A DNA stretch of 64,000 nucleotides from Planctomycetales bacterium (GTDB taxonomy: Bacteria; Planctomycetota; Planctomycetia; Pirellulales; Lacipirellulaceae): assembly GCA_020427155.1 (NCBI GenBank), contig JAGQOW010000008.1:1-64000 (forward strand), read 5' to 3'. The position numbers were made by a program, and so were the translations under genes. Below, one piece after another: positions 3,267-33,484 of this stretch. The notes beneath the pieces were generated by a model, which did not search any database, was not told the origin of the DNA, and worked only from the letters and a program-made list of their open reading frames with translations. Each line of letters begins with the position of its first letter. The stretch's first letter is position 1.

Positions 3267-4472
3267 ATGAACTCGCGTGAACGTGTACTCGCTGCTATCA
3301 ACCACCGTCAGCCCGACCGACTGCCGATCGACCTCGGGGGGACCCGGCAATCGGGCATCGCCGCTTCGACATATCACCGGCTCAAGCAGTGCCTGGGGAT
3401 CGACTCTCCGACGCGCGTTTACGATCTGTACCAGGTGCTTGCCGAGGTCGAACGCCCGGTGATGGATCGGTTCGGAGCCGACGTCGTAGGGCTCAATCGC
3501 CCCGAAGTCGCATTCGGAATTTGCAACGAGCGCTGGAAGCCCTGGCGGCTTTTTGACGGCACTCCGGTGGAAGTGCCTGGTGATTTTCTGCCTGAAACCG
3601 AGCCTAACGGCGACCTGATTCTGATTCAGAACGAACAGCCCATCGCACGCATGCCGAAAGACGGCTTCTACTTCGATCGCTTGGAAGTCTACCCGGGCGG
3701 GGCGCATACCCCGATTGAAGAGGTCAATCCACCGCTATTGAGCGATGAAGTATGTCAGCACTACCGGCTGCAGAGCCAAGCCCTCTACCAGAACACTGAC
3801 TTTGCCATTATCGCCCCTATGGGGCCGCCGTACGAACTGTTCTACGGCCTTGGCACAGGCGGGTTTACCGAGTGGATGATCACCTTGGCCACCGAGCCTG
3901 ATTACGTGAACGGTCTGCTCGAAAAACTGGTGGACATCTGGTTGCAGAACCTGAAACGGTTTGTCGATGCCGTAGGCGATCGTGTACAGATACTTCAATT
4001 CAACGACGACTTCGGTACCCAAAACGCGCCGTTTATTTCGCCCAAGATGTTCCGCGAATTGATCATGCCTCACTACCAGCGCGGACTTGACTGGATTCAT
4101 CGGAACACGCAGATGAAAGTCTTTCTGCACTGCGATGGCGCGATCTATCCTCTGATAGAATCTTTGATCGAGATGGGCGTCGATATTCTCAACCCGGTAC
4201 AAACCAGCGCCGTGGGGATGGACGCGCGACGGCTAAAAGATGAGTTCGGAGACCGGCTCGTGTTCTGGGGCGGCTCGCTCGATTGTCAAAAGACGCTGCC
4301 CTTCGGCACGCCCGAAGAGGTGGCCCATGAGGTGGAAGAGCACGTGCGAATTTTCTCTCCAGGGGGCGGGTATGTTTTTACCTCGGTACACAACATTCAA
4401 GCCAAGGTCCCGCCAGAAAACGTAATCGCTATGTTCGACACGGCACGGCGTTGCGAAGTCGTCCCGGCCTGA
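3267..4472 (+). CDS. URO-D superfamily methyltransferase, corrinoid-linked (MtaA/CmuA-N type)
   Basis: The 401-residue product has the uroporphyrinogen decarboxylase fold signature: an N-terminal RERVLAAINHRQPDRLP, ILQFNDDFGTQNAPFISP near 241-258, and VFLHCDGAIYPLIE near 285-298. It is not HemE: it lacks the HemE N-terminal pattern, and it lies near a corrinoid protein and an MtrH homologue, the setting of catabolic methyltransferases such as MtaA, MtbA and the N-terminal half of CmuA. His288 and Cys289 are candidates for the zinc site these enzymes use to activate thiols or substrates. The likely role, by inference, is transfer of a methyl group between a substrate or thiol and the corrinoid protein encoded at 4801. 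The methyl donor cannot be told from sequence. No strong ribosome binding site precedes the ATG. Confidence 0.88.
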   Translation: MNSRERVLAAINHRQPDRLPIDLGGTRQSGIAASTYHRLKQCLGIDSPTRVYDLYQVLAEVERPVMDRFGADVVGLNRPEVAFGICNERWKPWRLFDGTPVEVPGDFLPETEPNGDLILIQNEQPIARMPKDGFYFDRLEVYPGGAHTPIEEVNPPLLSDEVCQHYRLQSQALYQNTDFAIIAPMGPPYELFYGLGTGGFTEWMITLATEPDYVNGLLEKLVDIWLQNLKRFVDAVGDRVQILQFNDDFGTQNAPFISPKMFRELIMPHYQRGLDWIHRNTQMKVFLHCDGAIYPLIESLIEMGVDILNPVQTSAVGMDARRLKDEFGDRLVFWGGSLDCQKTLPFGTPEEVAHEVEEHVRIFSPGGGYVFTSVHNIQAKVPPENVIAMFDTARRCEVVPA

Positions 4473-4800
4473 GCATTGCCTGGCAGCGAGCCCATTTCTT
4501 TGCTTGGCTCAGGATTGCCTGGAATTTGCTCCCAAAGCCTCACTGGTTGGCGGCATTAACAAAACGCTACAATAAGGGCTGGCATCTCACATGCGATTCT
4601 TTGGTGCGGCGCCCCCCACTCCATGTTAAGAGCTTGGGATTCCAACTACTTTGTCCTAAGATATTTGCAGCAAGTGGCAGTTCGGCGATCCCTCTCGCCA
4701 GATAGGCGAGACTGATTAGCCCGACCATGCTAGTCTGGAGCGTGGCATACCCTAGTGGTTCCCGCTACAGGCCCCCGAGATACCGAGCGAAGGAGATGTC
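4473..4800. other. Intergenic region before the corrinoid protein gene
   Basis: About 330 bases without a credible gene. The last bases, AAGGAG at 4790-4795, form one of the best Shine-Dalgarno sequences in the window, 5 bases before the ATG at 4801. The long spacing suggests that the corrinoid gene has its own promoter. No B12-box was seen. Confidence 0.55.
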
Positions 4801-5424
4801 ATGGCCAGGAATGAAGCCCTGTTCCAGGCAGTTTACACCGGCGATCGAGACGCCGCCCGCGAAGCGGTCCAAGCTGCTCTGGATAATGGCGAGTCGGTGG
4901 AAAGCATCATGAACGATTCGCTCATTGCGGCGATGCGCCATATTGGCTCCTACTTTGAGTGTGGGGAGGCGTTTATTTCAGAAATGCTGATTGCCGCGCG
5001 GGCGATGGACACTGCTTTGCAAGTGATTGAGCCACTGCTGGTCAAGTCGGGCGTCGAACCCAAAGGTCGCGTCTGCATTGGCACGGTACAGGGTGACCTC
5101 CACGATATCGGTAAGAATCTCGTGGCGATGATGCTTAAAGGTGCGGGCTATCAGGTCGACGATCTGGGGGTGGATTGCTCGCTCGAGACGTATGTTTCCG
5201 CAGTGGAGCGAGGCGCCCAGGTGGTCTGCTTGAGTGCGCTGCTGACGACTACGATGCCAGCCATGCAAGATGTCGTAGCCCAATTGAAGCAGGCGGGATT
5301 CGATGTTCCAGTCATCGTCGGCGGCGCGCCGATCACGCAAGAGTATGCCGACCAGATCGGAGCGAGCGGTTTTTCCTCAACCGCCAGCGGCGCCGTCTCG
5401 GTCGTCGAACGCTGCCTCTCCTAG
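4801..5424 (+). CDS. Corrinoid (B12-binding) methyltransferase protein, MtbC/MttC/CmuA-C type
   Basis: The 207-residue product has the two-domain layout of free-standing corrinoid proteins: a helical B12-binding-2 cap (about 1-88) and a Rossmann-like cobalamin domain (about 90-207). The cobalt-ligand motif DxHxxG is intact as Asp99-x-His101-x-x-Gly104 in GDLHDIGKNL. It is followed by a conserved Ser/Leu segment (LSALLTTTMPAM) and the IVGGAP loop that holds the nucleotide tail. Such proteins shuttle a methyl group between a substrate methyltransferase and an acceptor methyltransferase. Here the candidates are the URO-D-like enzyme upstream and the MtrH-like enzyme at 6537-7466. A strong ribosome binding site supports the start. 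It ends 47 bases from the convergent Gfo/Idh gene. Confidence 0.95.
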   Translation: MARNEALFQAVYTGDRDAAREAVQAALDNGESVESIMNDSLIAAMRHIGSYFECGEAFISEMLIAARAMDTALQVIEPLLVKSGVEPKGRVCIGTVQGDLHDIGKNLVAMMLKGAGYQVDDLGVDCSLETYVSAVERGAQVVCLSALLTTTMPAMQDVVAQLKQAGFDVPVIVGGAPITQEYADQIGASGFSSTASGAVSVVERCLS

Positions 5425-5471
5425 AAGTCGAGAAGTAGATCGTTCAATAGATACGCACCGCAGACGACGTA

Positions 5472-6476
5472 TTACTGCTGTGCGGCTGTGGCGATCTGAA
5501 GAGCGATCTCCATTGCTCGGCGACCATCCTCTGGTTTCAAATCTGGCTCTTCCCCTTTTCTGATGCAGGCGATGAAGTATTCGTTCTGCTGCTGATGTCC
5601 CCACATCTTGGGGCCCGATTCTTTGACGTTCCAAACTGTCTTTTCGGGACTTTCGCCGAAAAGCGTCACCCGATCGTTATCTGCGGCGCTGAGTACGCAG
5701 GTCGAATCGCCGACTACCTCCAGATTGGAAGTCGAGACTGCGCGGTTCACCGATCCACTATACTGCAGACAGCCGACCATCCCGTTGGCAAGTCGCAACG
5801 CGACGTGGGCATCGTAACCGAGCGTTCCGCCAGTCTTTTCGAGCGGAGTATACTTGACTACGGGGTCGACACTCGCGATCTCGCTGTCGAAGAGCCAACG
5901 CACCAGATCAATCGACCAGACCGACAGCGTGAACAGCGGTCCGCCGCTTTTGTCAATTTGCCACATCCAGCAATCAGCCGGCCACTGGCTGGCCAGATCG
6001 GTAGCGGGAATGAATTCGCGGTAGATCACACTGGTAGGGTTTCCCAGCTTGCCTTGGGCTATCAGTTGCTTCGCCTTCACATAATTTGAGGTAAAGCGAA
6101 ACGTGAGGCTGGGCATCAGCAGCGCCCCTGCCCGGGCGGCAGCAGCGATAAGCTCGTCGGCTTCTGCCAATGACGGAGCCAGAGGCATTTCGCAAATCAC
6201 GTGCTTCCCCGCCTCCAACGCAGCAAGCGATGCAGCCACGTGCAGCGGAGTGGGCAGTGCTACGACGACTGCGTCTACGTTCGGGTCGTTCACCAGCTTG
6301 GCGTAGTCGTCGTAGCACGACTCGACCTGATGCTTTTGGGCGGCCTTGGTGCGACGTTTCTCATCGGCATCGGCGACAGCCACTAGCCGCGCTCCTTCGA
6401 TTGCGGCAAATGAAGGAACGTGCGCCCCACGTCCGACGAAACCACAGCCGATAACTCCCACTCCGATGTCCTTCAC
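5472..6476 (-). CDS. Gfo/Idh/MocA-fold protein with substituted catalytic residues
   Basis: The 334-residue product is a Gfo/Idh/MocA family oxidoreductase by fold: an N-terminal nucleotide-binding motif GVIGCGFVGRGAH, then ALPTPLHVAASLAALEAGKH, then a C-terminal alpha/beta domain. Two residues that usually define catalysis are changed. The EKP motif reads Glu96-Met97-Pro98, so the lysine is gone. The usual catalytic histidine of the GxHxxD-type motif is Trp187 in LSVWSIDLVRW, while Asp190 is kept. Both codons were checked on the DNA (6186-6188 and 5916-5918). It starts with GTG after an AAAGGAA ribosome binding site and lies 60 bases downstream of the MtrH-like gene on the same strand, so the two are probably co-transcribed. 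Its chemistry may differ from ordinary family dehydrogenases, or it may be catalytically inactive. Confidence 0.9.
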   Translation of the reverse strand: MKDIGVGVIGCGFVGRGAHVPSFAAIEGARLVAVADADEKRRTKAAQKHQVESCYDDYAKLVNDPNVDAVVVALPTPLHVAASLAALEAGKHVICEMPLAPSLAEADELIAAAARAGALLMPSLTFRFTSNYVKAKQLIAQGKLGNPTSVIYREFIPATDLASQWPADCWMWQIDKSGGPLFTLSVWSIDLVRWLFDSEIASVDPVVKYTPLEKTGGTLGYDAHVALRLANGMVGCLQYSGSVNRAVSTSNLEVVGDSTCVLSAADNDRVTLFGESPEKTVWNVKESGPKMWGHQQQNEYFIACIRKGEEPDLKPEDGRRAMEIALQIATAAQQ

Positions 6477-6536
6477 GATTCAGTTCCTTTCTGTCACACG
6501 GAATCGAGAGCTGCGAACGATCGTCGTCGCAAGCTG

Positions 6537-7466
6537 TCAGCCGATGCGAAAACGCGGGTGGCTTTTGTCGGGTTTGGCGCCTCTCTCGATGGAGAGTTGG
6601 CTCAGCGAAGTGTCGACCATGGCCACGGCAGGAAAGGCGGTTTCAGCGTCTTCAATTGGCCCGTAGAGTACAAAGTCGGCCCCGACCGCGACGGCCGCAG
6701 CCAGGGCAGAGGCCATGCAAGGCTTTTCTGCCTGCAGCCCCATCTTGGTTTTCAGACCCTTCCAAACCGCCACTGCATTGTGGAAGCCGCCGCCTACCGG
6801 TAAGCCAAATTCCTGCTTGATGTCGAACATTGCTCCAAAGGCTTGCCCCATGGTGGCTAGATCTAGCACACACGCGTCGACCATTAAATTGCAAATGCCC
6901 GCGTCGAGCAGCTTGGGCAACAATTCTCGCACAGCTTGAACGCGGCCCTGGGCAGTAAAATCTCTCATATAGTAGGTGAGCAAGATCGCGCTGGTAACAC
7001 CCGCGTCCTGAATCGCCTGCAGCTCTTCGTCGCGAATCTCCGGCTGGACCGAATTGTAGACGACTCGATCGGCCAGACCGGCTTGGGCAACATACTCCAG
7101 GCCAGCCAGTCTGACGGCAGAAGTCGTGCCGTCAATCAACAGCGGGGCCCTGGTGGCATCCTTGGCAAATTCCAAGTGCTTCTGCAGCGCGTCGGGGGTT
7201 GCGCCAACGACATCCAACATGCAAGGGTTGCCGGTCAGTGCAGCGAAATCATCCTGCGCGCGAATACGCTTTTCGGCCTCTTGCCGATCGAATTCTCCGC
7301 GTGCTTCATCGACACAGATCGAGTGGCCGTGATAGAAGCAGCTTCCGATCAGCACTGTCGGTCGTGCGCCGGGCACCCCTCCCACACACACGCCGCCGAT
7401 CTCAAACGACTGTTGCCTGGCCGCGAATTCCAGCAATCCGCCAGCGGTCCCTGGTTCCTCGGTCAT
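6537..7466 (-). CDS. MtrH-like methylcorrinoid:tetrahydropterin methyltransferase
   Basis: The 309-residue product matches the MtrH family (subunit H of tetrahydromethanopterin S-methyltransferase and its bacterial relatives). Signatures include VLIGSCFYHGHSI, LLIDGTTSAVRLAGLEYV, VYNSVQPEIRDEE, AILLTYYMRDFTAQGR and GGGFHNAVAVWKGLK. In methanogens MtrH moves the methyl group between tetrahydromethanopterin and the corrinoid subunit. In chloromethane degraders the related CmuB moves it from methylcorrinoid to tetrahydrofolate. No other Mtr subunit is present, so a soluble transfer from the corrinoid protein at 4801 to a pterin is the likely role. Planctomycetes are known to carry tetrahydromethanopterin-linked C1 enzymes, which makes that pterin a plausible acceptor. 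The ATG at 7466 is the natural start. Confidence 0.92.
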   Translation of the reverse strand: MTEEPGTAGGLLEFAARQQSFEIGGVCVGGVPGARPTVLIGSCFYHGHSICVDEARGEFDRQEAEKRIRAQDDFAALTGNPCMLDVVGATPDALQKHLEFAKDATRAPLLIDGTTSAVRLAGLEYVAQAGLADRVVYNSVQPEIRDEELQAIQDAGVTSAILLTYYMRDFTAQGRVQAVRELLPKLLDAGICNLMVDACVLDLATMGQAFGAMFDIKQEFGLPVGGGFHNAVAVWKGLKTKMGLQAEKPCMASALAAAVAVGADFVLYGPIEDAETAFPAVAMVDTSLSQLSIERGAKPDKSHPRFRIG

Positions 7467-7661
7467 CGCTACGCTCGCTCGTCCAAAGGCTCAATCAGGA
7501 GACCACGAGTTTAGCGTCCTTGTAAGCGTGGGACAAGCATGGCACTTGCCTTCCAGCACTTAAAGCCTGAGCTTATGACGAAGAGCTTCCTGCAACAGAG
7601 CGCGCCCCCAATCGTTGCCGGCAAATGCTGATGCAAATGCCGTCGAGAGTTTAAGGAAGCA

Positions 7662-9629
7662 CTACAATTCAATATCGCCTGCTGGTTTCTGCGAACGTTG
7701 ATACTCCGCCACGGCATCGAACACTGTCTGCGGAATGTTGAGACCCAAAACTAGCCAATTGTCCGATGTTTTCAGCCCCGCAAGTTCAATCTTGTTGAAG
7801 GCGCCAAGAAATCCCCCATCGGGAACGGCCACTCCGCCGGCATTGAGCAAAGGAGCGAAAAAGGCGTCGAGCTTTTCAGAGAGAAACTGCTGAGCATCGG
7901 TCGGCAGCGGCGTGTCCAACTCAACCTCGCCGTCTCGAACAAGTTCGTATTCATCAAAATCGTTCTTCAGCAACTTGTAGGTCGTCCTGGCCGTTGCTGC
8001 CGTTTCAAAACGCTCGCCGCCGATGTCGACGGCTGTGATTCTCATCGTAAACAGCAATTTATCGGGACTCGGCAACGAGATCTCCAAAGGCCGGTACTTC
8101 TCGGTCGTGACCGCCCAACGCGTCGATCGGGCATGCACCATCAGTGGCAATGGCAACTGCGGCTGCAGTATCTTGGCATAACGCATCAGGAATTCATCCG
8201 AGAGTGTCTTGCCGCCCAGAATCGTTTCGAGCGAGTTGTTGAAGAACGATAAATGCACGCGAACCTGGACGTCTCCCCCGACCAGATCTTCAGGGCAAGG
8301 CGTCAGAGCTCCGAATTGATCACGGCGGCTAGTGATCACGTTCGCCTTGATCTGCCGTGGATCGCTACAGAATCCCGCCAGCGTCGGCACCGCCCCTTCT
8401 CGACTGAGCGGAGCCAGGACGTCGGAGAATCCGCTGATCGATTGCTGGGTGTTTTTGATTTCCGCGCGGATCTCGGCCACAGCCTCGTTAACTTGCCGGT
8501 CCATGTTCTCAGTCAGCATTTTTGCCGTATGGGCCTTGGCCGTGGATCGCATATGAGATTGCGCCACCGGCCGTTTCGCCTGCCGGCGCGCGATGCCCTG
8601 CACGACTTGCCGATCTGCGGTGACTTTCCTCAGCCGGGTATTCACTGGCGTTTCTATCTTGGTTTCGCCAAGGGTCCAACCGGTGGTGCTGAAAAGCAGG
8701 GGCTTGGATGCCTGGACAGGACCAGACGTCATCACATGCAACTGCGCAGGGCCGGCATCCGCCTTGCAGCACGCCAGCACTTTGCCCTTAAAGACGAGTC
8801 GAACCTCCGCATTCACTTCATTGGCAACGATTTCCAATTCGGTCGAGCCAACGGTGTTGGCGGTCCCCCTCACTTGCAGAGTCCTGCCTTTGCGTCGAAT
8901 ACCACTGGGAGGTGCTTGATTCGTGTCTTTAATAGGAAAGTCCTGATCGATTTCGGTATCGAATATCTGGAGCAACCGCCGGGCCAAGTCGTCCGATACG
9001 GCAAGCTGGGCATTCGGCTGCGATAACAGTGAGCGAATGGCTGCGACTTCTTCAGTTAATTGGCCAGTCTGTTCAAACCAGCCGAGAGTACGAGCCAGGT
9101 CGACTGCACGTTCGTCGGTCGGCTCTGCAGCTATCGCGCGAAGTTCTTCCCGGGCGAGTGCTACTTTCTCTTCAAAGGCACTTTGAAGATTCGCTTGCTC
9201 GAAGGTATACGCGGCATCCAAATGGGCATCCATCTTGGTCCGCAGTTCGGCAAACACAGGACCTTCCAATCCTTCGCGATTCGAGTAGAGCCAGCGTCTG
9301 ACGATTGCCAGTTCTTCGTAGCGGGCCTCTCGCGATTGCAGATTCTCTTCGAGCAGGCGCCAGCGCAAATGCTCTCGCCATGCCGCCTGTTCACTGGCCT
9401 CCATGGAGGCCAATACGAGCTCGACCTGGGCGACCTCTTCTCGAAGCGCCTGTTGAGTAGAATGAAACCAGTGCTCCGCAGGTAATTCAAAGCGGTCTTC
9501 CGCCTCTGCCAACAGCTTCGCTGCCTGATCGACCCGGCTTTCCAGCGTGCTCTCGCCACTCACAGCCGGGTAGCAGATAAAGCCCAACGTACACGACAAC
9601 AGCCGTAGGATCTTCAGGGGGAGAGCCAT
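7662..9629 (-). CDS. Exported protein of unknown function
   Basis: The product has about 655 residues from the ATG at 9629. A GTG ten codons upstream (9659) is possible, but the ATG begins directly at a good signal peptide (MALPLKILRLLSCTLGFICY, cleavage near AVSGES). The first ~200 mature residues are rich in Glu, Ala and Leu and probably helical. The middle and C-terminal parts alternate beta-like segments and include FSDVLAPLSREGAVPTL and DNWLVLGLNIPQTVFDAVAEY. I recognise no catalytic motif or named family. Similar large exported proteins with the pattern 'helical start, then beta domain' are common in Pirellulales. It stands alone, divergent from the redoxin/monooxygenase gene. Confidence 0.8.
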   Translation of the reverse strand: MALPLKILRLLSCTLGFICYPAVSGESTLESRVDQAAKLLAEAEDRFELPAEHWFHSTQQALREEVAQVELVLASMEASEQAAWREHLRWRLLEENLQSREARYEELAIVRRWLYSNREGLEGPVFAELRTKMDAHLDAAYTFEQANLQSAFEEKVALAREELRAIAAEPTDERAVDLARTLGWFEQTGQLTEEVAAIRSLLSQPNAQLAVSDDLARRLLQIFDTEIDQDFPIKDTNQAPPSGIRRKGRTLQVRGTANTVGSTELEIVANEVNAEVRLVFKGKVLACCKADAGPAQLHVMTSGPVQASKPLLFSTTGWTLGETKIETPVNTRLRKVTADRQVVQGIARRQAKRPVAQSHMRSTAKAHTAKMLTENMDRQVNEAVAEIRAEIKNTQQSISGFSDVLAPLSREGAVPTLAGFCSDPRQIKANVITSRRDQFGALTPCPEDLVGGDVQVRVHLSFFNNSLETILGGKTLSDEFLMRYAKILQPQLPLPLMVHARSTRWAVTTEKYRPLEISLPSPDKLLFTMRITAVDIGGERFETAATARTTYKLLKNDFDEYELVRDGEVELDTPLPTDAQQFLSEKLDAFFAPLLNAGGVAVPDGGFLGAFNKIELAGLKTSDNWLVLGLNIPQTVFDAVAEYQRSQKPAGDIEL

Positions 9630-9796
9630 TGAATTCAAGGGGGAAATCGATGCAAACACTCAGATGTTGCTTTTTTGCGACCTACGCTTTGTAAGAGTGC
9701 GTTTTTTCCGGTCACTTGGTCGCCTCACCATAGGCTTGGCTCCCCAGATTCTTCAGTTTGGTTGCCGATTGTGCAACCTGGAGTGGTTATTAAGAC

Positions 9797-11635
9797 ATGG
9801 GCTACCAGAAGCATCCCCCGGCTTGGCTCGCTGTTTTGACAACAATGGCTTTTGCAGCGGCCACCGCCTCTGCTGCCGAGCTAACCGGTCGCTGGGGCGA
9901 TACCCGATTGCCGCAGCAGCTCGTCTACAAGTCCGATACCAGGCAAACCTCGGCGCTGGTGGTCGTCACCTTCTCGACCCGGTGCCCCTTGGCTCGGAGA
10001 ATCGTCCCGTTGCTCAATGAATTGCAAGCAAAGTACTATGCCGATGGCATTCAGTTCATCGCGCTCTTTCCCAACGGCATGGACGACCTGCGCGAGATTG
10101 CCGAGTACGCCATCGCCACCGAGTTGATCTTCCCAGTTTTCAAAGACGACCAAATTGCACCTTGGCATGTGGAGTTAGGCTTGAAGACCACGCCGCAAGT
10201 CGTCGTGCTCGACACGCGGCAAGGATTCGATCAACAACGAGTCGTCTATCGGGGGCAAATCAATGGCCGCTGGTTCGGCGGCGGCACGGCTAATGAAAAA
10301 CAGGAGTATTTGGCAGACGCCTTGGAGAGCTTTCTGCGCAACGAGGAACCTCCCCTTGCCGAAACCGCGGCTTCGGGTTGTCCGATTGCCAAAAGTGCTC
10401 CGATCGATCTCCAGCCATTTGCAGGTGTAACTTACTATCAAGAAATTGCCCGGCTGATTCAAAAGAGCTGCCTGGAGTGCCACCGCGAAGGGGAACCTGG
10501 CGCGGAACTGTTTGCGGCTTTCGATTCTTACGAAACGGTAGCGGGCATGAGCGGCGTGATGCTCAGCCGGATGGAGAATCGGCTCATGCCCCCCTGGCAC
10601 GGCTCGACGGCACACGACAACGGCCTCGAAGGATTTCAGAACGATGTGCGGTTGACCGAGGACGAGATCAATCTGTTTCGAGCATGGGTCGAGGCCGGCT
10701 GCCCGCCGGGAGACGCCAGCCAGGCTCCTGAGCCTCGCTCCTGGTTGCAGTCCGACCAGTGGAAGATTGGCACCCCCGACTTCGTCTTTGAAATGCCCGA
10801 ACCCTATGTGGTGCCCAAGTACCGCCTCGACGAGTATCAGTTCTACCGCGTGCGTGCCAATTTCCCTACAGATCGCTTTATCCAGGCAATCGAAATGAAG
10901 CCTGGCAACAAGGCTGTCGTTCACCACATGGGCGCAATTATTGGCCCTGCATCCGAAGAAAACCTGGCGGCCAACGAGGCGATGCTGAAACTTTACGGAC
11001 TCACCGGCGACAAGGTGAAGAAGATTGGCGACTATATTGCCGGCGATCCCTTCAACGCGCGCATTTACTCCAGCGGATCAGCTTTGGAACTGCCCGCCGG
11101 GCACGACCTCTTCTTCGAGATGCACTACACGCCGACCGGTCAGAGCGAAGAGCCCGACGTTTCGAAGATGGGGATCATTTGGGCCCCCTCGAAACCCGAC
11201 CATGTGATCCAGACCAGGGTATTCAACCGCAAAGATATCCGGCTTCGGCCCCACGATCAGCACTACGAAAAGCAGAGTTACTATCAGTTTCCGACCGATG
11301 TGCTGATTTACTCGCTCGGACCGCACATGCACTATCGCGGCAAGGATTTCACACTCTACAAGATCGAAAACCCAGGGACCGACCAAGAGCTTCGGACTTT
11401 GGTTTTATGCGTGGCTACTTACGACTTCAACTGGCAGCGAACTTACGAATTTGTCAAACCGCTGCAGCTCAAAGCTGGCGATGCCCTCTTGAGTATTGCC
11501 CACTTGGACAACTCGCACCTGAATCCTAACAATCCCGATCCCGAGGCGGCGATTCGCTTTGGACTCAAGAGCGAGCAAGAGATGCTCAATATGCGCGTGA
11601 AATACGAAGAAGTCGACTTTGGGTCGCTGGAATAA
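9797..11635 (+). CDS. Redoxin - cytochrome c - copper type II monooxygenase fusion, exported
   Basis: The 612-residue product has a signal peptide (cleavage near TASAAELT, about residue 27) and three domains. Residues ~30-185 form a thioredoxin-like domain with only one cysteine at the usual active-site position (STRCPLARR, Cys63). Residues ~210-310 form a cytochrome c-like domain with one CxxCH haem site (Cys225-Cys228-His229) and a possible axial Met in RLMPPWHG. The C-terminal ~290 residues resemble copper type II, ascorbate-dependent monooxygenases (PHM/DBH fold), with paired histidines 376-377, HY at 443 and HMH at 510-512 as probable copper ligands. The arrangement suggests an exported oxidative enzyme with its own electron-entry domain. 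The substrate is unknown. This domain order recurs in planctomycetes. Confidence 0.9.
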   Translation: MGYQKHPPAWLAVLTTMAFAAATASAAELTGRWGDTRLPQQLVYKSDTRQTSALVVVTFSTRCPLARRIVPLLNELQAKYYADGIQFIALFPNGMDDLREIAEYAIATELIFPVFKDDQIAPWHVELGLKTTPQVVVLDTRQGFDQQRVVYRGQINGRWFGGGTANEKQEYLADALESFLRNEEPPLAETAASGCPIAKSAPIDLQPFAGVTYYQEIARLIQKSCLECHREGEPGAELFAAFDSYETVAGMSGVMLSRMENRLMPPWHGSTAHDNGLEGFQNDVRLTEDEINLFRAWVEAGCPPGDASQAPEPRSWLQSDQWKIGTPDFVFEMPEPYVVPKYRLDEYQFYRVRANFPTDRFIQAIEMKPGNKAVVHHMGAIIGPASEENLAANEAMLKLYGLTGDKVKKIGDYIAGDPFNARIYSSGSALELPAGHDLFFEMHYTPTGQSEEPDVSKMGIIWAPSKPDHVIQTRVFNRKDIRLRPHDQHYEKQSYYQFPTDVLIYSLGPHMHYRGKDFTLYKIENPGTDQELRTLVLCVATYDFNWQRTYEFVKPLQLKAGDALLSIAHLDNSHLNPNNPDPEAAIRFGLKSEQEMLNMRVKYEEVDFGSLE

Positions 11636-11668
11636 CTTTCCGCGAATGGTCCCTACGGCACCTGTGGC

Positions 11669-12382
11669 TTAACGCCACTCCATCAGCGCTGTATTAAGTG
11701 CTTGCTGCACGCGGCGGCGGGGCTGATGAAAATAGATCATGCCGTGCCCAGGGAGCATGATATCGGTGTCGACTTGGGCGAATCGCTTGAGCGAATCCAG
11801 GTAGGCGACTTTATCGAAATCGATTGATCCGCTCCAGCCAAAATCGCCTGCCAGCAGAGTGCCTATGACATCGCCGCTTACCACCAGTTGGCGCCCCTCG
11901 TGCTCAAAGAAAAACGCAGTGCAGCCCCGACTGTGTCCAGGCAGGTGCATCACGCGGAAATTGACGCCGAACAGTTCAAACGATTCACCGTCGGCAACCA
12001 CCTGATCGACCTCAAACGGGGTAAACGTCTTGTGGTACAAATAGCCGCAGCAGCGGTCGTCGCCCGCAGCAACCGCCTCGGCAGTTTCGCCGACGGCGAT
12101 AAACTCGATCCCGTGGGCTTTCAGCAAATGCCCTGCCCCCGCGTGATCAAAATGGGCATGGGTCAGGATGCAGTACGCTACGTCCTTGAGTTCCAATCCC
12201 CAATACTGCATGTTGGCTTCAATCTGGTGGAGCGTATCCCCGCAGCCGCAGTCGAACAGAATGAGCCCCTCAGGCCTCTCGAGTACATAGGTATTGCCGT
12301 CATTGTACCCGGCATCGACGCCGTCCCACGTGACGCCGTTCATGTCGCCGCCAACCTGGAACAAATGTCGCAAAACTTGCAT
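11669..12382 (-). CDS. Metallo-beta-lactamase-fold hydrolase
   Basis: The product has 237 residues from the ATG at 12382 (MQVLRHLFQ). A start five codons upstream is possible but adds only MARLC. The metal-binding motif is complete: THAHFDHAG, then HLPGHSRGC, VSGDVIG and LPGHG near the C-terminus, the usual dinuclear zinc or iron ligands of the glyoxalase II-like branch. Substrates of this superfamily range from thioesters to lactones and cannot be assigned here. It has no signal peptide and is probably cytoplasmic. It converges on the monooxygenase-fusion gene with only 33 bases between them. Confidence 0.93.
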   Translation of the reverse strand: MQVLRHLFQVGGDMNGVTWDGVDAGYNDGNTYVLERPEGLILFDCGCGDTLHQIEANMQYWGLELKDVAYCILTHAHFDHAGAGHLLKAHGIEFIAVGETAEAVAAGDDRCCGYLYHKTFTPFEVDQVVADGESFELFGVNFRVMHLPGHSRGCTAFFFEHEGRQLVVSGDVIGTLLAGDFGWSGSIDFDKVAYLDSLKRFAQVDTDIMLPGHGMIYFHQPRRRVQQALNTALMEWR

Positions 12383-12472
12383 ACACAGCCTCGCCAATCT
12401 GTTATGGTTTTACTTTTACGGTACGATCACGGATTCTCTCCGAGTTCATTCTAACAACGCGAGGTGGAACTG

Positions 12473-13177
12473 ATGAACCTGCTCCGACGGTTTTCTTGCA
12501 CATTGTTGATGTTGATTCTGCTTATCGCACCTGGCAGTGCGCTGCGAGCCGAAAACGAGGGTTGCTGGCAAGATCTCTTTGACGGTAAAACGCTGGATGG
12601 TTGGATTCAAAAGAACGGCACGGCAACATACCGCGTTGTCGACGACACGATCGTCGGCCAGACGACCGAGGGAAGCCCCAATTCGTTTCTTTGCACCGAA
12701 AAAGACTACGGCGATTTCGAATTGGAGTTCTTTGTACGAGTTCACGATGAGCTGAATTCAGGCGTGCAGATCCGATCGACCACCAAGGAAGCGTCTGCCG
12801 CGGAAGAAAAGGCCGGCAACTTCGGCCGAGTCAATGGACCGCAGGTCGAGATCGAAGCCAGCGGGGCAGGGGGGGCCGAGGCAGGCTATGTTTATGGCGA
12901 AGCCACAGGCCGCGGTTGGCTCACGCCCGAAAAGCGGCTCATTCCGCACAAACACTTTCGCGATGGCCAGTGGAACCACTACCGCGTTGTTGCTCGCGGA
13001 CCTCGCATTCAAACGTGGATCAACGGCGAGCCGATTGAAGATCTCACCGACGAAGAGGCCTACCAAACGCATCCGAAAGGGTTTATTAGTTTGCAAGTCC
13101 ATGGCATCGGGGCAGGCAAAGGCCCGTTTGACGTAGCTTGGAAGCAAATTCGCATCAAAGAGCTGCCCACCCCGTGA
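12473..13177 (+). CDS. DUF1080 (3-keto-disaccharide hydrolase-like) exported protein
   Basis: The product has 234 residues. I prefer the ATG at 12473 to the GTG at 12464 because that GTG lies within the GAGG-type ribosome binding site of the ATG. The signal peptide is clear (LLRRFSCTLLMLILLIAPGS, cleavage near LRAEN). The mature part has the laminin-G/jelly-roll pattern of DUF1080: WQDLFDGKTLDGWIQKNG, then SGVQIRS, VYGEATGRGWL, WNHYRVVARGPRIQTWINGE and GFISLQVHG. Some DUF1080 members hydrolyse 3-keto-glycosides; most planctomycete copies are uncharacterised. The SGNH hydrolase gene follows in the same direction, so the pair may act together on glycans. Confidence 0.93.
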   Translation: MNLLRRFSCTLLMLILLIAPGSALRAENEGCWQDLFDGKTLDGWIQKNGTATYRVVDDTIVGQTTEGSPNSFLCTEKDYGDFELEFFVRVHDELNSGVQIRSTTKEASAAEEKAGNFGRVNGPQVEIEASGAGGAEAGYVYGEATGRGWLTPEKRLIPHKHFRDGQWNHYRVVARGPRIQTWINGEPIEDLTDEEAYQTHPKGFISLQVHGIGAGKGPFDVAWKQIRIKELPTP

Positions 13178-25495: not shown

Positions 25496-26371
25496 TCAGA
25501 GTGTGCTGACGTCGACGGAGACCGACATCGTGTGGCTGCCGCCGCCGACGAAGACGCCCTGAATCGGGCAGACGTCGCCGTAGTCTCGACCATACGCCAC
25601 GGTGACGTGATCCTGAGTCGGCAGGACGTTGTTGGTGGGATCGAAGTCGACCCAAACCGCGTTGCCAGCGAAGACTGACAACCATGCGTGCGACGCGTCG
25701 GCGCCTACAAGCTTTTCTTTTCCAGGCGGGGGGATGGTTCGCAGGTAGCCACTCACGTAGCGGGCTGCCAACCCTAGGGAACGCAAGCAAGCAATTTGAA
25801 GATGGGCAAAATCTTGACACACCCCCGCCTTTTGCGAAAGCACCACGTCCACCGGCGTGCTGATGTCGGTTGCCCGGGAATTGTAGTGGAACTGTTCGTT
25901 TATGCGTCGCGTCAGATCGGCAGCGGCCGCCAGGATAGGGCGCCCCGGCGTGAACGATGGTTTGGCGAATTCGGCCAGCGACGTGCTGATCGGAACAAAA
26001 TCAGATGCAAAGGAAAACATACATGCATCCCGCCAAGCATCGTTGGGGGGCTTAAGCAGTCCCTGCCGGAGTTCTTCCCACGGAGGTGAGTCATCAACGT
26101 CTACAGGTGCCGACGGTTCAAAGACTTCTACCGTACTAGTGGACGTCACCGAAAGGGTCCGAAGAGCATTGAGGATGCTGAAGTATTCAACGCGGTTTCC
26201 AAAGTAATCGGCGTGCGAGTCGATCCGCAACGGATCCGGCATCACCATCAAACGATAACTGCTGCAATGCTGGCATGCAGTCGTTCGCGGGGCGAGGTGC
26301 AACTTATTCTCAAAAACCGGCACCGGCTCGCTGTACGTGTATTTGGTTGTGTGAGTGATTCGGTATTGCAT
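25496..26371 (-). CDS. Transglutaminase-like (papain-fold) protein with bacterial transglutaminase N-domain
   Basis: The product has 291 residues. The N-terminal half is the Bact_transglu_N domain (MQYRITHTTKYTYSEPV, LAPRTT). The C-terminal half is a transglutaminase core with Cys in KAGVCQDFAH, His in DASHAWLSVF and Asp in WVDFDPTNN, so the catalytic triad is complete. It has no signal peptide. Such proteins are likely proteases or amide-transferring enzymes rather than true protein cross-linkers. It is the last gene of the five-gene minus-strand operon, 13 bases after the ATP-grasp/alpha-E fusion, and probably processes peptides made by the ligases upstream. Confidence 0.93.
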   Translation of the reverse strand: MQYRITHTTKYTYSEPVPVFENKLHLAPRTTACQHCSSYRLMVMPDPLRIDSHADYFGNRVEYFSILNALRTLSVTSTSTVEVFEPSAPVDVDDSPPWEELRQGLLKPPNDAWRDACMFSFASDFVPISTSLAEFAKPSFTPGRPILAAAADLTRRINEQFHYNSRATDISTPVDVVLSQKAGVCQDFAHLQIACLRSLGLAARYVSGYLRTIPPPGKEKLVGADASHAWLSVFAGNAVWVDFDPTNNVLPTQDHVTVAYGRDYGDVCPIQGVFVGGGSHTMSVSVDVSTL

Positions 26372-26384
26372 CGATTACAGTTTT

Positions 26385-28985
26385 TTAGGGAAGCACGGGT
26401 TTGGGCGCCCAGGTCCGCGTCGAAGAGGTGTGGACCAGATAGCGGTTCGCGAGTTCGTGAGATAGTGCGGGCAACTTGCGTTCCAGTCCTGCCAATAGCG
26501 ACTCTAGCTGATGCTGATCGTCTGAACCGTGCGGCTCGCAGAAGTGTTGAATCTCTAACATTCGTACGGAGTGGACCATCGACAGGATGAGCTTCTCGTG
26601 CTTCGCCAGCGTCACCTCCTTGTGGTGTCGAGGCAAACTTTCCGCATGCTGCCGGAGGGTGACGAGCTGAAAGGCAATACTGCGGGGGTTGGTTTCGTCG
26701 GTAATCAGCAGATCGAGTACTGCGGCGAGTTGGAGATTCAACAGATATCGCGAGCGATAAGTCATCACGCTGTCGGCAATTTCCAGCACTGCTTCCAAAA
26801 GATAGCCGGTGACGGCATGCTTGCCAACGAAACAACTTCGGAGCAGAGCGGTCATCTGATGTGCTCGTTCGAGCCGCCGACCGAAGTCCAGGAAACGGAA
26901 GACATGCGAACGCGTCATGCTTTCCATCACGAATCCTTCCATTGCTGCGAGATCAATGATCAAGCCGTTGACAAAGTTCAGCACGTCGGTCATGTCCAAC
27001 GAGTTGCTGGCGACCTGCATCGAGCGAAACCTCTGGTCGATGCGAACCAGCGTACGCCAGGAGTCAACTGACAGACGGTCGCGCACAACCGAGGCAACTC
27101 GACTGAGTTCTTCTAACACCGAACGGAGCGAACTGGGTTGGTGCTCGTCGAAAATCAGTTGGGGCATTGCCGACTCGATGTCCGGCAGGCCCCCTTTCAT
27201 GTTTTCCAGTGCATAGCCAGGATCAATTTGGCCTTGGCTTGCCAGCGCGCGTAAGAGTGGGGCCAACCTCGCCTGGCGGCTTTCCGGCGTTTCGCTGGTC
27301 GCCTGGAGAATGAAAGTTCGCAAGAGACGGGCCGCAGCGTCGGCTCGTTCGATCTGCCTCCCCAACCAGAAGATGTTGTCTGCCACACGACTGGGAAGAT
27401 CGGATCCTACTCGGCGAAGCTCAATGGCCGATTCGCTTTGCGTGAGCAGCGAAACATATTCAACGGGTTGGTCTCCCACAATCCACGTGTCTTTACATCC
27501 TCGTCCGAAAGGAGCACAGGAATCGCTCTTGACTGCGCTGTCGGTAGTTGTCGTACGAGTGAGTCCGCCCTCCATCACTTTGAAGCTACTCCTGTGGGCC
27601 ACAGAAAATGCACGAACTTCCAAACGCGCAGATACGAGTTGGTTGCCCTTCCAAAGTGGCGCAACCGACGATGCCAGTCGTTCTTGAGCGACAAATCGAT
27701 TGGGATCGCTCCGAATGAGGGCTTCCAACTTGTGCGGAGGAACTTGAGCAATGTCTTGCTCCGGCTGCATCTTCTGCCCGCGGTGTCGATAGGCTTCAGT
27801 GATCGTCAGTCGATCGAGTCGAGAAACGACGTACTCCAATGAATTTGGCTCTCCGCACCACCAGGTTGCGATGCCAGGCATCGCCAGATCCTGCTGTAGG
27901 AAGAACCGGCAGAGCCGCGGCATGAAGGCCATGAATATGGGTGATTCTACCAGGCCACTGCCCAGGGGGTTGGTAAGCGCTACCGATCCCGAACGCACCG
28001 CCTGCAACAACCCGGCGACACCGGCGGAACTATCCGCACTGAATTCCAATGGATCGCAATCTTCGCTGTTGGGGCGTCGCAGAATAACGTCGATCGGCAG
28101 CAGACCGTCAAGCGTCTTCAAGTACACTCGACCGTCTCGGAAAGCAAGGTCGGCGCCCTCCACCAATGTGTGGCCGAGATAGCGGGCAAGGTAGGCGTCT
28201 TCAAAATAGCATTCCTGTTGCGGGCCGCGGCTCAGAATGACCGCGCGGGTAACGCCGCTGTGCAAACCCGCCAATTCCTGCAGTGTTTCTTCAAACGCTA
28301 TAAAGAACGGCGCCAGCCGCCTCACATTGCACTTGCGGTAGATCTCAGGCAGCATCCGAGATATGACGATGCGATTCTCCAGAGCAAAGCCAATTCCCGA
28401 AGGTGCTTCACTGCGGTCGGCCAATACCCACCACTTGCCGTCCGGAGCCCGCGCCAGGTCGGCGGCGTAGTAGTGAAGCGGTAACGCTGAGTCCGGCTTC
28501 AGCCCATGATACGCCAGCTGAAAACCTGGATGGGCGTACAATACCGCCGGCGGTATCACCGCTTCCTTGAGCAACCGCTGCGGGCCGTAGAGATCGGACA
28601 GCACCAGTTGTAACAGTTCCGCTCTCTGGACGATGGCGGCCGAAACTTCGCGCCACTCCGTCTCATGGATCAACAGCGGCAGGGCGTCCAATTCCCACGG
28701 TCTGGCGTTTGCGTCGGGGTCGCCGTAGGGGCTATAGGTGATACCGTTCTCGCGGATCAGTCGTTGTGAATGGCGCCACCGGCGCTCGAATTCACCCTTC
28801 TGGAGTCGCTCGATCATGGGAATGAAACGATCCCAGAGCGGACGAACGCGACCGTCAGGAGTCAACAGTTCGTTGAATCCAGTGCGAACCGACTGGTATC
28901 CGGAAAGAAAGCCCGGCGAGGGGCCGACAGGCAAGGGGGCACTCCCTGCGGACGATTGCTGGCTTGTTTGTTGCTGGTCCTGCAT
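26385..28985 (-). CDS. Circularly permuted ATP-grasp / alpha-E fusion protein
   Basis: The 866-residue product joins a circularly permuted ATP-grasp domain (DUF404/DUF407; about 60-500) to an alpha-E domain (DUF403; from SRVADNIFWLGRQIERADA near 530 to about 840). Recognisable ATP-grasp segments are ITYSPYGDPDANARPWELD, ADRSEAPSGIGFALENR and LVEGADLAFRDGRVYLK. Where the shorter paralogue at 33485 has [12 protein letters not shown], this one reads TITEAYRHRGQK, so the usual nucleotide-contacting Lys and the Gly-rich loop are missing. It may therefore be a degenerate or regulatory copy. Family members are predicted amide ligases of peptide metabolism. It starts 23 bases after the DUF2126 stop and ends 13 bases before the transglutaminase gene. 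Confidence 0.92.
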   Translation of the reverse strand: MQDQQQTSQQSSAGSAPLPVGPSPGFLSGYQSVRTGFNELLTPDGRVRPLWDRFIPMIERLQKGEFERRWRHSQRLIRENGITYSPYGDPDANARPWELDALPLLIHETEWREVSAAIVQRAELLQLVLSDLYGPQRLLKEAVIPPAVLYAHPGFQLAYHGLKPDSALPLHYYAADLARAPDGKWWVLADRSEAPSGIGFALENRIVISRMLPEIYRKCNVRRLAPFFIAFEETLQELAGLHSGVTRAVILSRGPQQECYFEDAYLARYLGHTLVEGADLAFRDGRVYLKTLDGLLPIDVILRRPNSEDCDPLEFSADSSAGVAGLLQAVRSGSVALTNPLGSGLVESPIFMAFMPRLCRFFLQQDLAMPGIATWWCGEPNSLEYVVSRLDRLTITEAYRHRGQKMQPEQDIAQVPPHKLEALIRSDPNRFVAQERLASSVAPLWKGNQLVSARLEVRAFSVAHRSSFKVMEGGLTRTTTTDSAVKSDSCAPFGRGCKDTWIVGDQPVEYVSLLTQSESAIELRRVGSDLPSRVADNIFWLGRQIERADAAARLLRTFILQATSETPESRQARLAPLLRALASQGQIDPGYALENMKGGLPDIESAMPQLIFDEHQPSSLRSVLEELSRVASVVRDRLSVDSWRTLVRIDQRFRSMQVASNSLDMTDVLNFVNGLIIDLAAMEGFVMESMTRSHVFRFLDFGRRLERAHQMTALLRSCFVGKHAVTGYLLEAVLEIADSVMTYRSRYLLNLQLAAVLDLLITDETNPRSIAFQLVTLRQHAESLPRHHKEVTLAKHEKLILSMVHSVRMLEIQHFCEPHGSDDQHQLESLLAGLERKLPALSHELANRYLVHTSSTRTWAPKPVLP

Positions 28986-29008
28986 GTTTGTGAATCACCT
29001 GTGGCCAT

Positions 29009-31723
29009 TCAGTTGCGGTTGCGTCGCAGATCCAGCGTCAAGGGAAATTCTGGATTGGTCTCCGGTGTGGGCAGTGTAACCTGTCCAGGCGTATGCCCAA
29101 AGGCGAAGAAACGTGTCGCACGTCGACTTTCGGCTTCGAGAGCGTTGACGGGGAAAGTCGTCGGATTCAGTCCGCCGGGATGGCCCACGTGGTATTGGCA
29201 ACCGCCATCGGAGCGCCGGAACCACTGGTCGACTAGATCGAACACTAGTGGACCGTCCACGGGTATCGTGGGATGCAGACAACTGGGCGGCTGCCAGGCC
29301 CGATAGCGGACGCCGGCCACAAATTCGCCTTCCACGCCTGTCGGATGAAGCGGTACCCGACGACCATTGCATGTAAGAATGTGCCTGGGGTCGGTCATTC
29401 CCGATACTTTCACCTGCAGACGCTCCACCGACGAATCGACGTAACGCGCCGTGTAGCCTGCTCCCTGCTCCTCGCCAAGTACGTACCACGGTTCGATGGC
29501 GCGACGCAACTCGATAAATACGCCACGATGGGTGCAGCTGCCGATTCTCGGGAACCGGAATTCGTAGTGGGAGTCGAACCACTCCTGCTCCAACTCAAAA
29601 CCCGCGCTGCGCATCTCCTCGATCACTTCCCCGAAATCCTGCCAGATAAAGTGCGGCAACATCCAACGGTCGTGGATCGTCGTATTCCAGGTCACCAGTT
29701 TTTCTGTGTACGGCTGGTCCCAGAATCTCGCGGTCAGCGCCCGCAGTAAGAGTTGTTGAGTGAGGCTCATGCGCGCATGCGGCGGCATCTCAAAAGCGCG
29801 AAACTCGACCAGCCCCAGTCTGCCCGCAGAGGAATCGGGCGAAAACAACTTGTCGATGCAGAACTCGGCCCGATGGGTATTGCCGGTTCCATCGGCAAGC
29901 AGGTGGCGGAATACCCGGTCGACGAGCCAGGCGGGAACTTCATTACCGCGCTGAATCTGCTCGAACGCAATTTTCAATTCGTACAGCGAGTCGGACCGCG
30001 CCTCGTCGACGCGGGGAGCCTGGCTGGTAGGACCGATGAATTTGCCGGATAGCAGGTAAGAAAGCGACGGGCGGTTCTGCCAGTAGCCGAGAAAACTCTT
30101 CAGCAGATCGGGCCGGCGTAGCCAGGGACTGTCAGCGGGCGTGGGACCGCCCATCACTACGTGATTGCCTCCACCGGTACCGGTGTGAGAACCGTCCTGG
30201 TCGAATTTCTCAGTGCAGAGTCGAGTCTGGTGGGCATCTTCGTAGACCCCCGTTGTTAGGTTCACCAATTCGTCCCAACTGTGAGCCGGGTGAACGTTTA
30301 CTTCCAATACGCCGGGGTCGGGCGTTACCTTGATGTGTTCCAAGCGGCTGTCTTTCGGAGGCAGGTAGCCTTCGACGATCACCGGGAGTCCCGTCGAATC
30401 GGCGGTGGCCTCGACAGCGGCAATCAAGTCGACGTAGGTCTCCGTGCGGTCGATTGGCGGGATGAATACGTGAAGCCGGCCCTGCCGCGGTTCGACGCAG
30501 AGTGCCGTTCGAATGACATTCGACGGGTCATCGCACTGCGTGTCGACCTTGTAGAGCTGAGAGGACTCGGACGTCGTCTCGGGACTTAGCTCTTCCGTCT
30601 CATATCCTTTGTCGTCCCCCCCGAGGCTGTACCCGCTACTACCATTGACTCCTGCTGCAGCTACCTGCTTTACGATCCGCGATTCGTCGATGCAAGAATG
30701 TCCATTCCCGTAGGTTGCAGCGAATAGTCGCCGTCGCAAACGCTCGTGTTCCGGCAACTCCATCTCCGCAATCATTGGGTCTGCCTCGAAGAAGTGTCTT
30801 GGATACGCTTCCTTTCCCTCGTACAAAAGCGACTGGAGAGGCAGGCGAAAACCCATTGGTGAATCGCCCGGAATGAGGAACAACTCATCCGATCGCACGG
30901 CCCAGAGCCCGCTTTCCCAATGTGGACACGGCTCCCACCAGCGATACTGCAGGGGAAGAATCATGCCGACGGGGCTCGTGATTCCTTGCTCGAATACGCG
31001 AGCGATTCGGGATCGCTCCTCTTCGTCTTCCAGCTTGGGATCGCGTACATTCACGTTGGCCGGGAGGCGACGCTCCTTCCAGGTGTAGTAGATCACGTCT
31101 TCATAGCATTCGACAGTGTGATCGGGATTCACTCCGAGCACTTCGGCAAGTCTTGCGGCAAACAGCCCCGCCTCGCCGACTCCGAATCCGTAGTCTTTGT
31201 CCTGTTCCGCAAACAGATCCGGGTTGTTCCAAAGGGGCTGCCCGTCTTTCCGCCAGTAGCAGTGCATGGCCCAGCGGGGAAGTGACTCGCCCGGGTACCA
31301 CTTCCCTTGTCCGTAGTGTAGGAGCCCTTGGGGGGCGAATCGGTTTCGCAATCGCAGTAGGAGCCTATCCGCCAGGCGGCGTTTGTTAGGCCCCACGGCG
31401 GCGGTGTGCCACTCGTCGTCCTCCTTGTCGTCGATCGAGACAAAAGTCGGTTCGCCGCCCATCGTCAAGCGAACGTCCGAGGCTTTCAGTTTTTCGTCGA
31501 TCTCGTGGCCCAGTGCTTCAATCCGAGCCCACTGCTCCTCGGTGTACGGTTTCGTGACACGTGGGTCTTCGTGAATGCGATCGACCGACATCTCGAAGCC
31601 AAACTCCACTTCGCACTCCTCATGGGAGCCGGTAATCGGAGCCGCCGAGATCGGCATGGGCGTGCAAGCCAAGGGGATGTGCCCTTCGCCGGCCAGCAGG
31701 CCAGAGGTGGGATCGAGTCCCAC
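29009..31723 (-). CDS. DUF2126 protein, downstream fragment of a frameshifted transglutaminase-DUF2126 gene
   Basis: The 904-residue frame opens with GTG in [17 protein letters not shown], which in relatives is the interior of a ~1100-residue protein just after the transglutaminase core. DUF2126 signatures follow: [63 protein letters not shown] and [10 protein letters not shown]. The DUF2126 region is undamaged for its full length, so if the frameshift is real it occurred recently or is bypassed. DUF2126 resembles ATP-dependent carboxylate-amine (glutamine synthetase-like) ligases in older predictions, and it is regularly encoded beside alpha-E and ATP-grasp genes. On its own this frame lacks a natural start and ribosome binding site. 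It should be read together with the entry at 31620. Confidence 0.85.
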
Positions 31724-32447: not shown

Positions 32448-32484
32448 TCGGATACTTGCTGCAAAAAGGAACTGGAGGGGAGAA

Positions 32485-33474: not shown

Positions 33475-33484
33475 TGTCTCGTCC

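Follow-up and report, generated by a model that had tools for sequence, protein, structure and literature searches.

Between positions 3267 and 7466 of the window (the whole stretch of 64,000 nucleotides that was analyzed), ORF and domain searches place a protein of the UroD type (PF01208), a stand-alone corrinoid protein (PF02310 and PF02607) and a protein of the MtrH type (PF02007). The initial annotation had described them as a split three-component corrinoid methyl-transfer set of separate ORFs on both strands, and this account of the components and their layout is borne out. UroD1 (3267..4472, plus strand, 401 aa; PF01208, E 1.5e-28), a candidate methyl-donor:corrinoid methyltransferase (MT1), shares its strand with the corrinoid protein (4801..5424, plus strand, 207 aa; PF02607 and PF02310), the putative methyl carrier. 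On the opposite strand lie the MtrH-type protein (6537..7466, minus strand, 309 aa; PF02007, E 3.2e-81), a putative methyl-corrinoid:pterin methyltransferase (MT2), and, starting 60 bp downstream of its gene, an ORF encoding a Gfo/Idh/MocA-fold protein (5472..6476, minus strand, 334 aa; PF01408/PF02894), so that the set consists of two convergent gene pairs.

The four-gene set is not a chance cluster, because a genome of the same order and a different family (G678) again has MtrH, corrinoid and Gfo/Idh genes side by side in one module. Since the Gfo/Idh gene is grouped there with the other two, it is a member of the set, and the initial annotation, right about its three proteins, had left this fourth one out. 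The G678 module reads UroD-act-MtrH-corrinoid-Gfo/Idh on a single strand, where act is a MetH-activation-domain protein; its identities to the set are 73% for MtrH, 51% for the corrinoid protein and 77% for Gfo/Idh, and its MT1 belongs to another UroD subfamily than UroD1. Scans for promoter and terminator consensus sequences gave matches no richer than those in shuffled sequence, and the set holds no transporter or substrate enzyme that would indicate the methyl donor.

The corrinoid and MtrH-type proteins

The DxHxxG motif of the corrinoid protein, initially reported as intact, is present as D99LHDIG104, together with S145AL and a GG near position 174. The protein has both this motif and both B12-binding domains, as membership of the Mto/Mtv O-demethylase kind requires. 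Its nearest NCBIfam models are MtgC (the best, with 187 bits against a cut-off of 370) and pyl_corrinoid, both matched below cut-off, and in a tree it groups with corrinoid proteins that adjoin UroD1 or MtrH (support 97/97).

The MtrH-type protein belongs to the MtrH family by its scores of 273 bits against PF02007 (cut-off 22.8) and 305.5 bits against NF002142 (cut-off 287). It stays under the cut-offs of the methanogen MtrH equivalog TIGR01114 (230.8 against 271.4 bits) and, by far, of the MtgA equivalog NF047990 (211.7 against 550 bits). The nearest solved relative of its structure model is MtxA/MtoA (8z9u; Z 35.1, 266 residues, 42% identity), whose PDB title names MtxA of Methermicoccus shengliensis as a 2-methoxybenzoic acid methyltransferase, with MtgA a close second (Z 33.4). 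Furthermore, D112 and N230 align with D102 and N227 of MtgA, the residues chosen there for mutation; CmuB carries Asn at the position of D112. Two CmuB proteins are 29-32% identical to the MtrH-type protein and are set apart by a long branch with support of 100/100 in a tree of 11 rows, which gives the planctomycete clade no settled sister. MtrH is rare in the phylum and present in few relatives, and a scan of genome contigs with MtrH as query returned two loci only.

UroD1 and the Gfo/Idh/MocA-fold protein

UroD1 forms a clade of its own in the tree, with orthologues at 70-77% identity and no characterized member. Its identification as HemE is ruled out, as it scores 29 bits against the HemE model TIGR01464 (cut-off 303) and does not group with HemE in the tree; the HemE-like gene of the genome is a distinct one on contig C111. 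Against the MtaA/CmuA model it reaches 46 bits (cut-off 235.4; control CmuA, 507.8 bits), and its identity to CmuA is 22%. Viral contigs searched with the UroD alignment gave no loci. For a placement in the O-demethylase clade of MtoB, MtvB, OdmB and VdmB, the comparison covered the UroD type found in a Bipolaricaulota contig (see below), to which UroD1 gave no match beyond 30% over 91 residues.

The predicted metal ligands of UroD1, read from the ligand columns of an alignment, are His288-Asp290-His375, where MtaA and CmuA have His-Cys-Cys. The third ligand is uncertain, because the UroD1-MtaA alignment has only about 22% identity, and HemE likewise has His in the H375 column. PMC10418091 reports that UroD-family methyltransferases not specific for sulfur have carboxylates or non-ligands in place of the Cys residues, a carboxylate favoring oxygen. 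The ligand argument is nevertheless a weak one, since CdmB and the Moorella enzyme do not require zinc.

The Gfo/Idh protein keeps the Rossmann GxGxxG motif as G10CGFVG. Its alignment to solved dehydrogenases indicates that the canonical catalytic Lys, Asp and His, which in IolG of Bacillus subtilis are Lys97, Asp172 and His176 (PMC9603128), have all been replaced, by M97, T183 and W187, and the 77% orthologue in the G678 module has identical substitutions. A single-sequence structure model was too poor for use (mean pLDDT 41). The association with MtrH occurs in two planctomycete families, and such a protein could represent a new kind of redox enzyme in a methyl-transfer path, a proposal that we consider rather improbable. 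One example would be a methyl-/methylene-H4MPT oxidoreductase that depends on NAD(P), has no flavin and feeds the methyl group into the bacterial H4MPT oxidation route; another would be an enzyme that oxidizes the substrate beside an aliphatic methyl ether and thereby makes the methyl group removable by Co(I).

Related loci and the rest of the genome

The UroD1 orthologue has a corrinoid gene no more than two genes away in three genomes (G405, G415 and G423), as does a 37-40% relative in a fourth (G320); in G413, UroD1 is present and the stretch examined holds no corrinoid gene. In G405, G415 and G423 a PF02574 homocysteine methyltransferase directly precedes the UroD1 orthologue, and MtrH was not found in these genomes; the acceptor module beside UroD1 therefore appears exchangeable between homocysteine methyltransferase and MtrH. 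Two of the three (G415 and G423) also hold a UroD2 with H-C-C ligands next to UroD1. In G417, a RACo gene directly follows MtrH and the corrinoid gene stands apart, and the Bipolaricaulota contig JACIWM010000045.1 (L031) reads corrinoid-UroD-MtrH-RACo.

The absence of a RamA-type gene, as initially stated, holds for the window, in which none was seen, but not for the genome, which has one RACo gene (PF14574, 241 bits on contig C136). This gene is divided between contigs C649 and C136, with an overlap of 148 bp (98.6%) at the contig ends, and sits in a separate corrinoid cluster, a corrinoid-RACo-activation-homocysteine methyltransferase-UroD locus whose corrinoid protein is of a different clade from that at 4801-5424. 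The genome also has a gene for a MetH-length protein and, on contig C630, the methenyl-H4MPT cyclohydrolase gene mch (PF02289, 405 bits); this contig carries CitG- and PTPS-family genes as well. Because the genome carries this H4MPT-type gene, the pterin acceptor suggested in the initial annotation is plausible. None of the contrary results which that annotation had named appeared, as UroD1 does not group with HemE, the MtrH-type protein is a true PF02007 member and a C1-pterin gene is present.

Interpretation and known systems

Our preferred reading, held with about even confidence, is that the four genes form an Mto/Mtv-like module of the O-demethylase kind, in which methyl groups pass by way of a corrinoid to a pterin acceptor. 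UroD1 would bind the methyl donor, probably an O-methyl compound, and Co(I) of the corrinoid protein would accept its methyl group; the MtrH-type protein would then pass this group to H4MPT or H4F, and RACo, encoded elsewhere in the genome, would restore Co(I) whenever the corrinoid is oxidized by accident. The Gfo/Idh-fold protein would be a redox partner with a non-canonical mechanism, and its target would be the substrate, the product left after demethylation or the C1-pterin. We favor this because the MtrH model best matches MtxA and MtgA with D102/N227 kept, because UroD1 reads H-D-H and not H-C-C, and because of the protein families, the arrangements in G678, G417 and L031, the corrinoid neighbors of UroD1 and the presence of RACo and mch.

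Several observations count against an O-demethylase. The UroD1 clade lacks a characterized member, its ligand argument is weak and the set has no donor-indicating gene. The MT1 of G678 is of another subfamily, the corrinoid gene of G417 is alone and UroD1 of G413 is without one; RACo belongs to another corrinoid cluster, and the halves of the set lie on opposite strands.

Methyl halide dehalogenation, with UroD1 and the corrinoid protein acting as CmuA and MtrH as CmuB, would employ the same three domain types, and the cmu regions of CM4 and Hyphomicrobium contain MtrH-type and UroD-type genes. It is highly improbable, given the distance of MtrH from CmuB across a long, fully supported branch, the UroD1 score far under the MtaA/CmuA cut-off and its different predicted metal site, and given that no cmuC-like gene was recognized among the four and that the window's listed ORFs include none for cobalamin. 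Cmu membership is rejected on models, tree and ligands, and the initially proposed Cmu likeness is not supported; because UroD-type haloalkane enzymes are scattered across the UroD superfamily (PMC13222342), dehalogenation nevertheless keeps a small probability. It is also very unlikely that the set is of the type 1 mlp kind, whose core is UroD paralogues beside a corrinoid protein (PMC10418091): the UroD1-UroD2 pairs of G415 and G423 fit it, but UroD1 lacks the H-C-C ligands that are almost invariable in these clusters, which need Mlp2 and Mlp3 and have no pterin methyltransferase, whereas the set has MtrH.

Demethylation of quaternary or tertiary amines such as glycine betaine, in which MtrH and the corrinoid protein would take the parts of MtgA and MtgC and another locus of the genome would supply an MttB-type MT1, has a similarly small probability. 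MtgC is indeed the best model of the corrinoid protein and MtrH matches MtgA too, yet both scores are far below the curated cut-offs (187/370 and 212/550), and neither the set nor any of the three MtrH neighborhoods examined (G678, G417 and the Bipolaricaulota contig) contains an MttB gene. Methionine synthesis, in which MtrH in reverse would load the corrinoid from methyl-pterin and the C136 homocysteine methyltransferase would take the methyl group, is unlikely. The homocysteine methyltransferases preceding UroD1 orthologues and the second corrinoid locus speak for it; the MetH-length protein and the separate corrinoid protein of that locus speak against it, as do the lack of a role for UroD1 and the restriction of MtrH to few relatives, which would be odd for an essential amino-acid pathway.

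As an O-demethylase-like module, the planctomycete set would give methyl groups direct entry into the H4MPT pathway. Planctomycetes have long been known for H4MPT-linked C1 genes, usually discussed as formaldehyde handling (PMC5020050), and a limited search of open papers found no description of planctomycete MtrH-corrinoid sets. The apparent swap of homocysteine methyltransferase and MtrH suggests that the methyl acceptor can change while donor enzyme and carrier are kept, and the Gfo/Idh partner would add an odd dehydrogenase-like component not known from O-demethylase systems.

The set more closely resembles the lignin-demethylating systems of anaerobes than the chloromethane system. In the Mto system of M. 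shengliensis and Archaeoglobus fulgidus, MtoB is the UroD-type O-demethylase, MtoC the corrinoid protein, MtoA/MtxA the MtrH-type protein and MtoD the activase (PMC8630106, PMC8359953), and M. shengliensis MtoA, a relative of MtrH, removes the methyl group of methyl-MtoC with H4F standing in for H4MPT (PMC8630106). Shared with it are three components as separate proteins, an MT2 nearest to MtxA among solved structures, a pterin acceptor, here a predicted one, and a RACo-type activase in the genome. The planctomycete set differs in its bacterial host, its two strands, its distant activase gene, its extra Gfo/Idh-fold protein and its UroD1, which forms a separate clade among the sequences compared. 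The Bipolaricaulota contig likewise has corrinoid, UroD and MtrH (42%) genes side by side, but its RACo lies inside the operon, it has no Gfo/Idh gene, and its UroD is similar not to UroD1 but to the one in G678 (26%, E 2e-43). The glycine betaine system of Desulfitobacterium hafniense has an MtrH-type MT2 with the conserved D102/N227 and a corrinoid protein, MtgC, like that of the set, and differs in its MttB-type MT1. In the type 1 mlp clusters, UroD paralogues likewise accompany a corrinoid protein and an activase, but the ligands are H-C-C and there is no pterin methyltransferase (PMC10418091). CmuA/CmuB of Methylorubrum extorquens CM4 and the Hyphomicrobium type combine UroD, corrinoid and MtrH-type domains as well; in CmuA, however, the UroD and corrinoid domains are fused and the ligands are H-C-C, whereas UroD1 and the planctomycete corrinoid protein are separate ORFs, and CmuB, which has Asn at the position of D112, branches far from the MtrH-type protein of the set.

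Gene set and its recurrence

Within the window, four open reading frames form two convergent pairs whose stop codons lie 47 bp apart. On the plus strand, UroD1 (3267-4472), a clear family match and a candidate methyl-donor:corrinoid methyltransferase, precedes a corrinoid protein (4801-5424) with DLHDIG at positions 99-104 and Ser and Gly-Gly downstream. The minus strand carries MtrH (6537-7466), equally clear in its family and a candidate methyl-corrinoid:pterin methyltransferase, and, 60 bp downstream of it, the gene for a Gfo/Idh/MocA-type protein (5472-6476). The split three-part corrinoid methyl-transfer set proposed in the initial annotation is real by families and gene arrangement, although only three of the four genes had been named, the Gfo/Idh/MocA-type gene being missed. 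Adjoining the set is a 665-aa frame lacking any Pfam match (7662-9659, minus). Farther along, six minus-strand frames (25496-35032) resemble by eye what we take to be a transglutaminase-like, circularly permuted ATP-grasp and alpha-E cluster, apparently in two rounds.

Overlapping samples of 392, 59, 43 and 397 genomes yielded four planctomycetes with a true MtrH match: the window's genome (G000), G320, G417 and G678. In G678, six genes share one strand of L114, namely UroD (7134-8354), a MetH-activation-type protein (8629-9348; PF02965, E 2.8e-10), MtrH (9433-10365), corrinoid protein (10444-11088), Gfo/Idh (11182-12183) and a short-chain dehydrogenase (12209-13024). A corrinoid-activating RACo gene directly follows MtrH in G417, where the window-type corrinoid gene is solitary on a different contig. 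In G320, MtrH sits at the edge of its contig; elsewhere, on another contig, 60 bp separate a UroD1 relative (37-40%) from the corrinoid gene that follows it. A stand-alone corrinoid gene within three genes of MtrH, expected by chance in about 0.003 per genome (rough estimate), was seen in two of the genomes where visible. A plasmid of the haloarchaeon Halomicrococcus gelatinilyticus (L110 3215-7921) carries a corrinoid protein, an ASKHA-type activase, a DUF1638 protein and an MtrH (38%), with no UroD gene annotated between corrinoid and MtrH.

Inositol dehydrogenases use Lys97, Asp172 and His176 (PMC9603128). In the window's Gfo/Idh protein GxGxxG is unbroken, and alignment places Met97 at the EKP lysine and Thr183 and Trp187 at Asp and His; other Gfo/Idh genes of the loci retain EKP. 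The 77% orthologue of G678 carries identical substitutions. With these residues replaced, an ordinary sugar dehydrogenase is unlikely.

Acceptors and reactivation

UroD1 orthologues (70-77%) occur in G413, G405, G415 and G423. In the latter three, a PF02574 homocysteine methyltransferase directly precedes UroD1, a corrinoid gene lies at most two genes away and MtrH was not found in these genomes; the acceptor enzyme therefore appears to vary while UroD1 and the corrinoid protein persist. In G415 and G423 the neighbourhood also includes an MtaA-like UroD2 and a protein of the MetH-activation type. At L103 (5468-11733) and L104 (3395-8371), UroD2 (H-C-C), activation-type protein, corrinoid protein, UroD1 and homocysteine methyltransferase are grouped without MtrH, a set by which the methyl group of a donor might reach methionine through a corrinoid. 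A 105-aa remnant in G399, of the same genus (L105 11676-11993; 72% to the UroD1 C-terminal part), suggests loss of the gene.

The window's genome (5.5 Mb, 665 contigs, 87% complete) holds one copy each of MtrH, metF, mch (for which a search had been proposed) and RACo, and six UroD matches, the top one HemE-like with PVWLMRQAGR. Of its three B12-binding_2 proteins, one is that of the window, another lies on C649 and the last is a frame of MetH length. CitG-, PTPS- and RimK-family genes share the mch contig, in keeping with a pterin pathway, and the methyl acceptor of the set is likely a pterin. The RACo gene, of the RamA type earlier noted as missing from the set, sits in a second corrinoid locus spanning C649 (L014 16941-18333), C136 (L013 1-4746) and C646 (L016 1-280), joined by overlaps of 148 and 153 bp (98.7%). 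This locus encodes a corrinoid protein of a different clade, RACo, a MetH-activation-related protein, homocysteine methyltransferase, a 109-aa protein without a Pfam family and an H-C UroD. By inference, this RACo would reactivate the corrinoid protein of the window as well. Upstream, a GH38-type glycosidase, a sodium symporter and a UroD-DUF4037 pair hint at methylated sugars. The locus is conserved in G404, G392, G422 and G320, the first two adding a MetF/DUF5981 protein and an amidohydrolase.

Relation to known methyltransferases

The UroD1 clade is separate from HemE, as had been queried, and from CmuA and the H-C-C paralogues, with deep branches weak. Alignment to MtaA predicts H288, D290 and H375 as metal ligands, columns that read H-C-C in MtaA, CmuA, UroD2 and the C387 paralogue. 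PMC10418091 links the H-C-C set to substrates with S or Se, and its replacement by carboxylate to a preference for oxygen. Since CmuA, too, has H-C-C and zinc is dispensable for some enzymes of the UroD type, these columns give only a hint of an O-methyl donor.

The four planctomycete MtrH proteins form a single clade (100/99), distant from two CmuB proteins (100/100), its branching order relative to MtxA, MtgA and methanogen MtrH being unsettled. The MtrH model (mean pLDDT 74) best matches MtxA of Methermicoccus shengliensis (Z 35.1, rmsd 1.9, 266 residues, 42%), followed by MtgA of the glycine betaine system (Z 33). D112 and N230 align with D102 and N227, mutated in the solved MtgA series, whereas CmuB has Asn at the position of D112. 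The chloromethane (Cmu) likeness first proposed finds no support in either tree or in the predicted H-D-H versus H-C-C ligands; the set is best read as a three-part methyl-transfer system like those of O-demethylation, with its donor, its pterin and the role of the Gfo/Idh protein putative.
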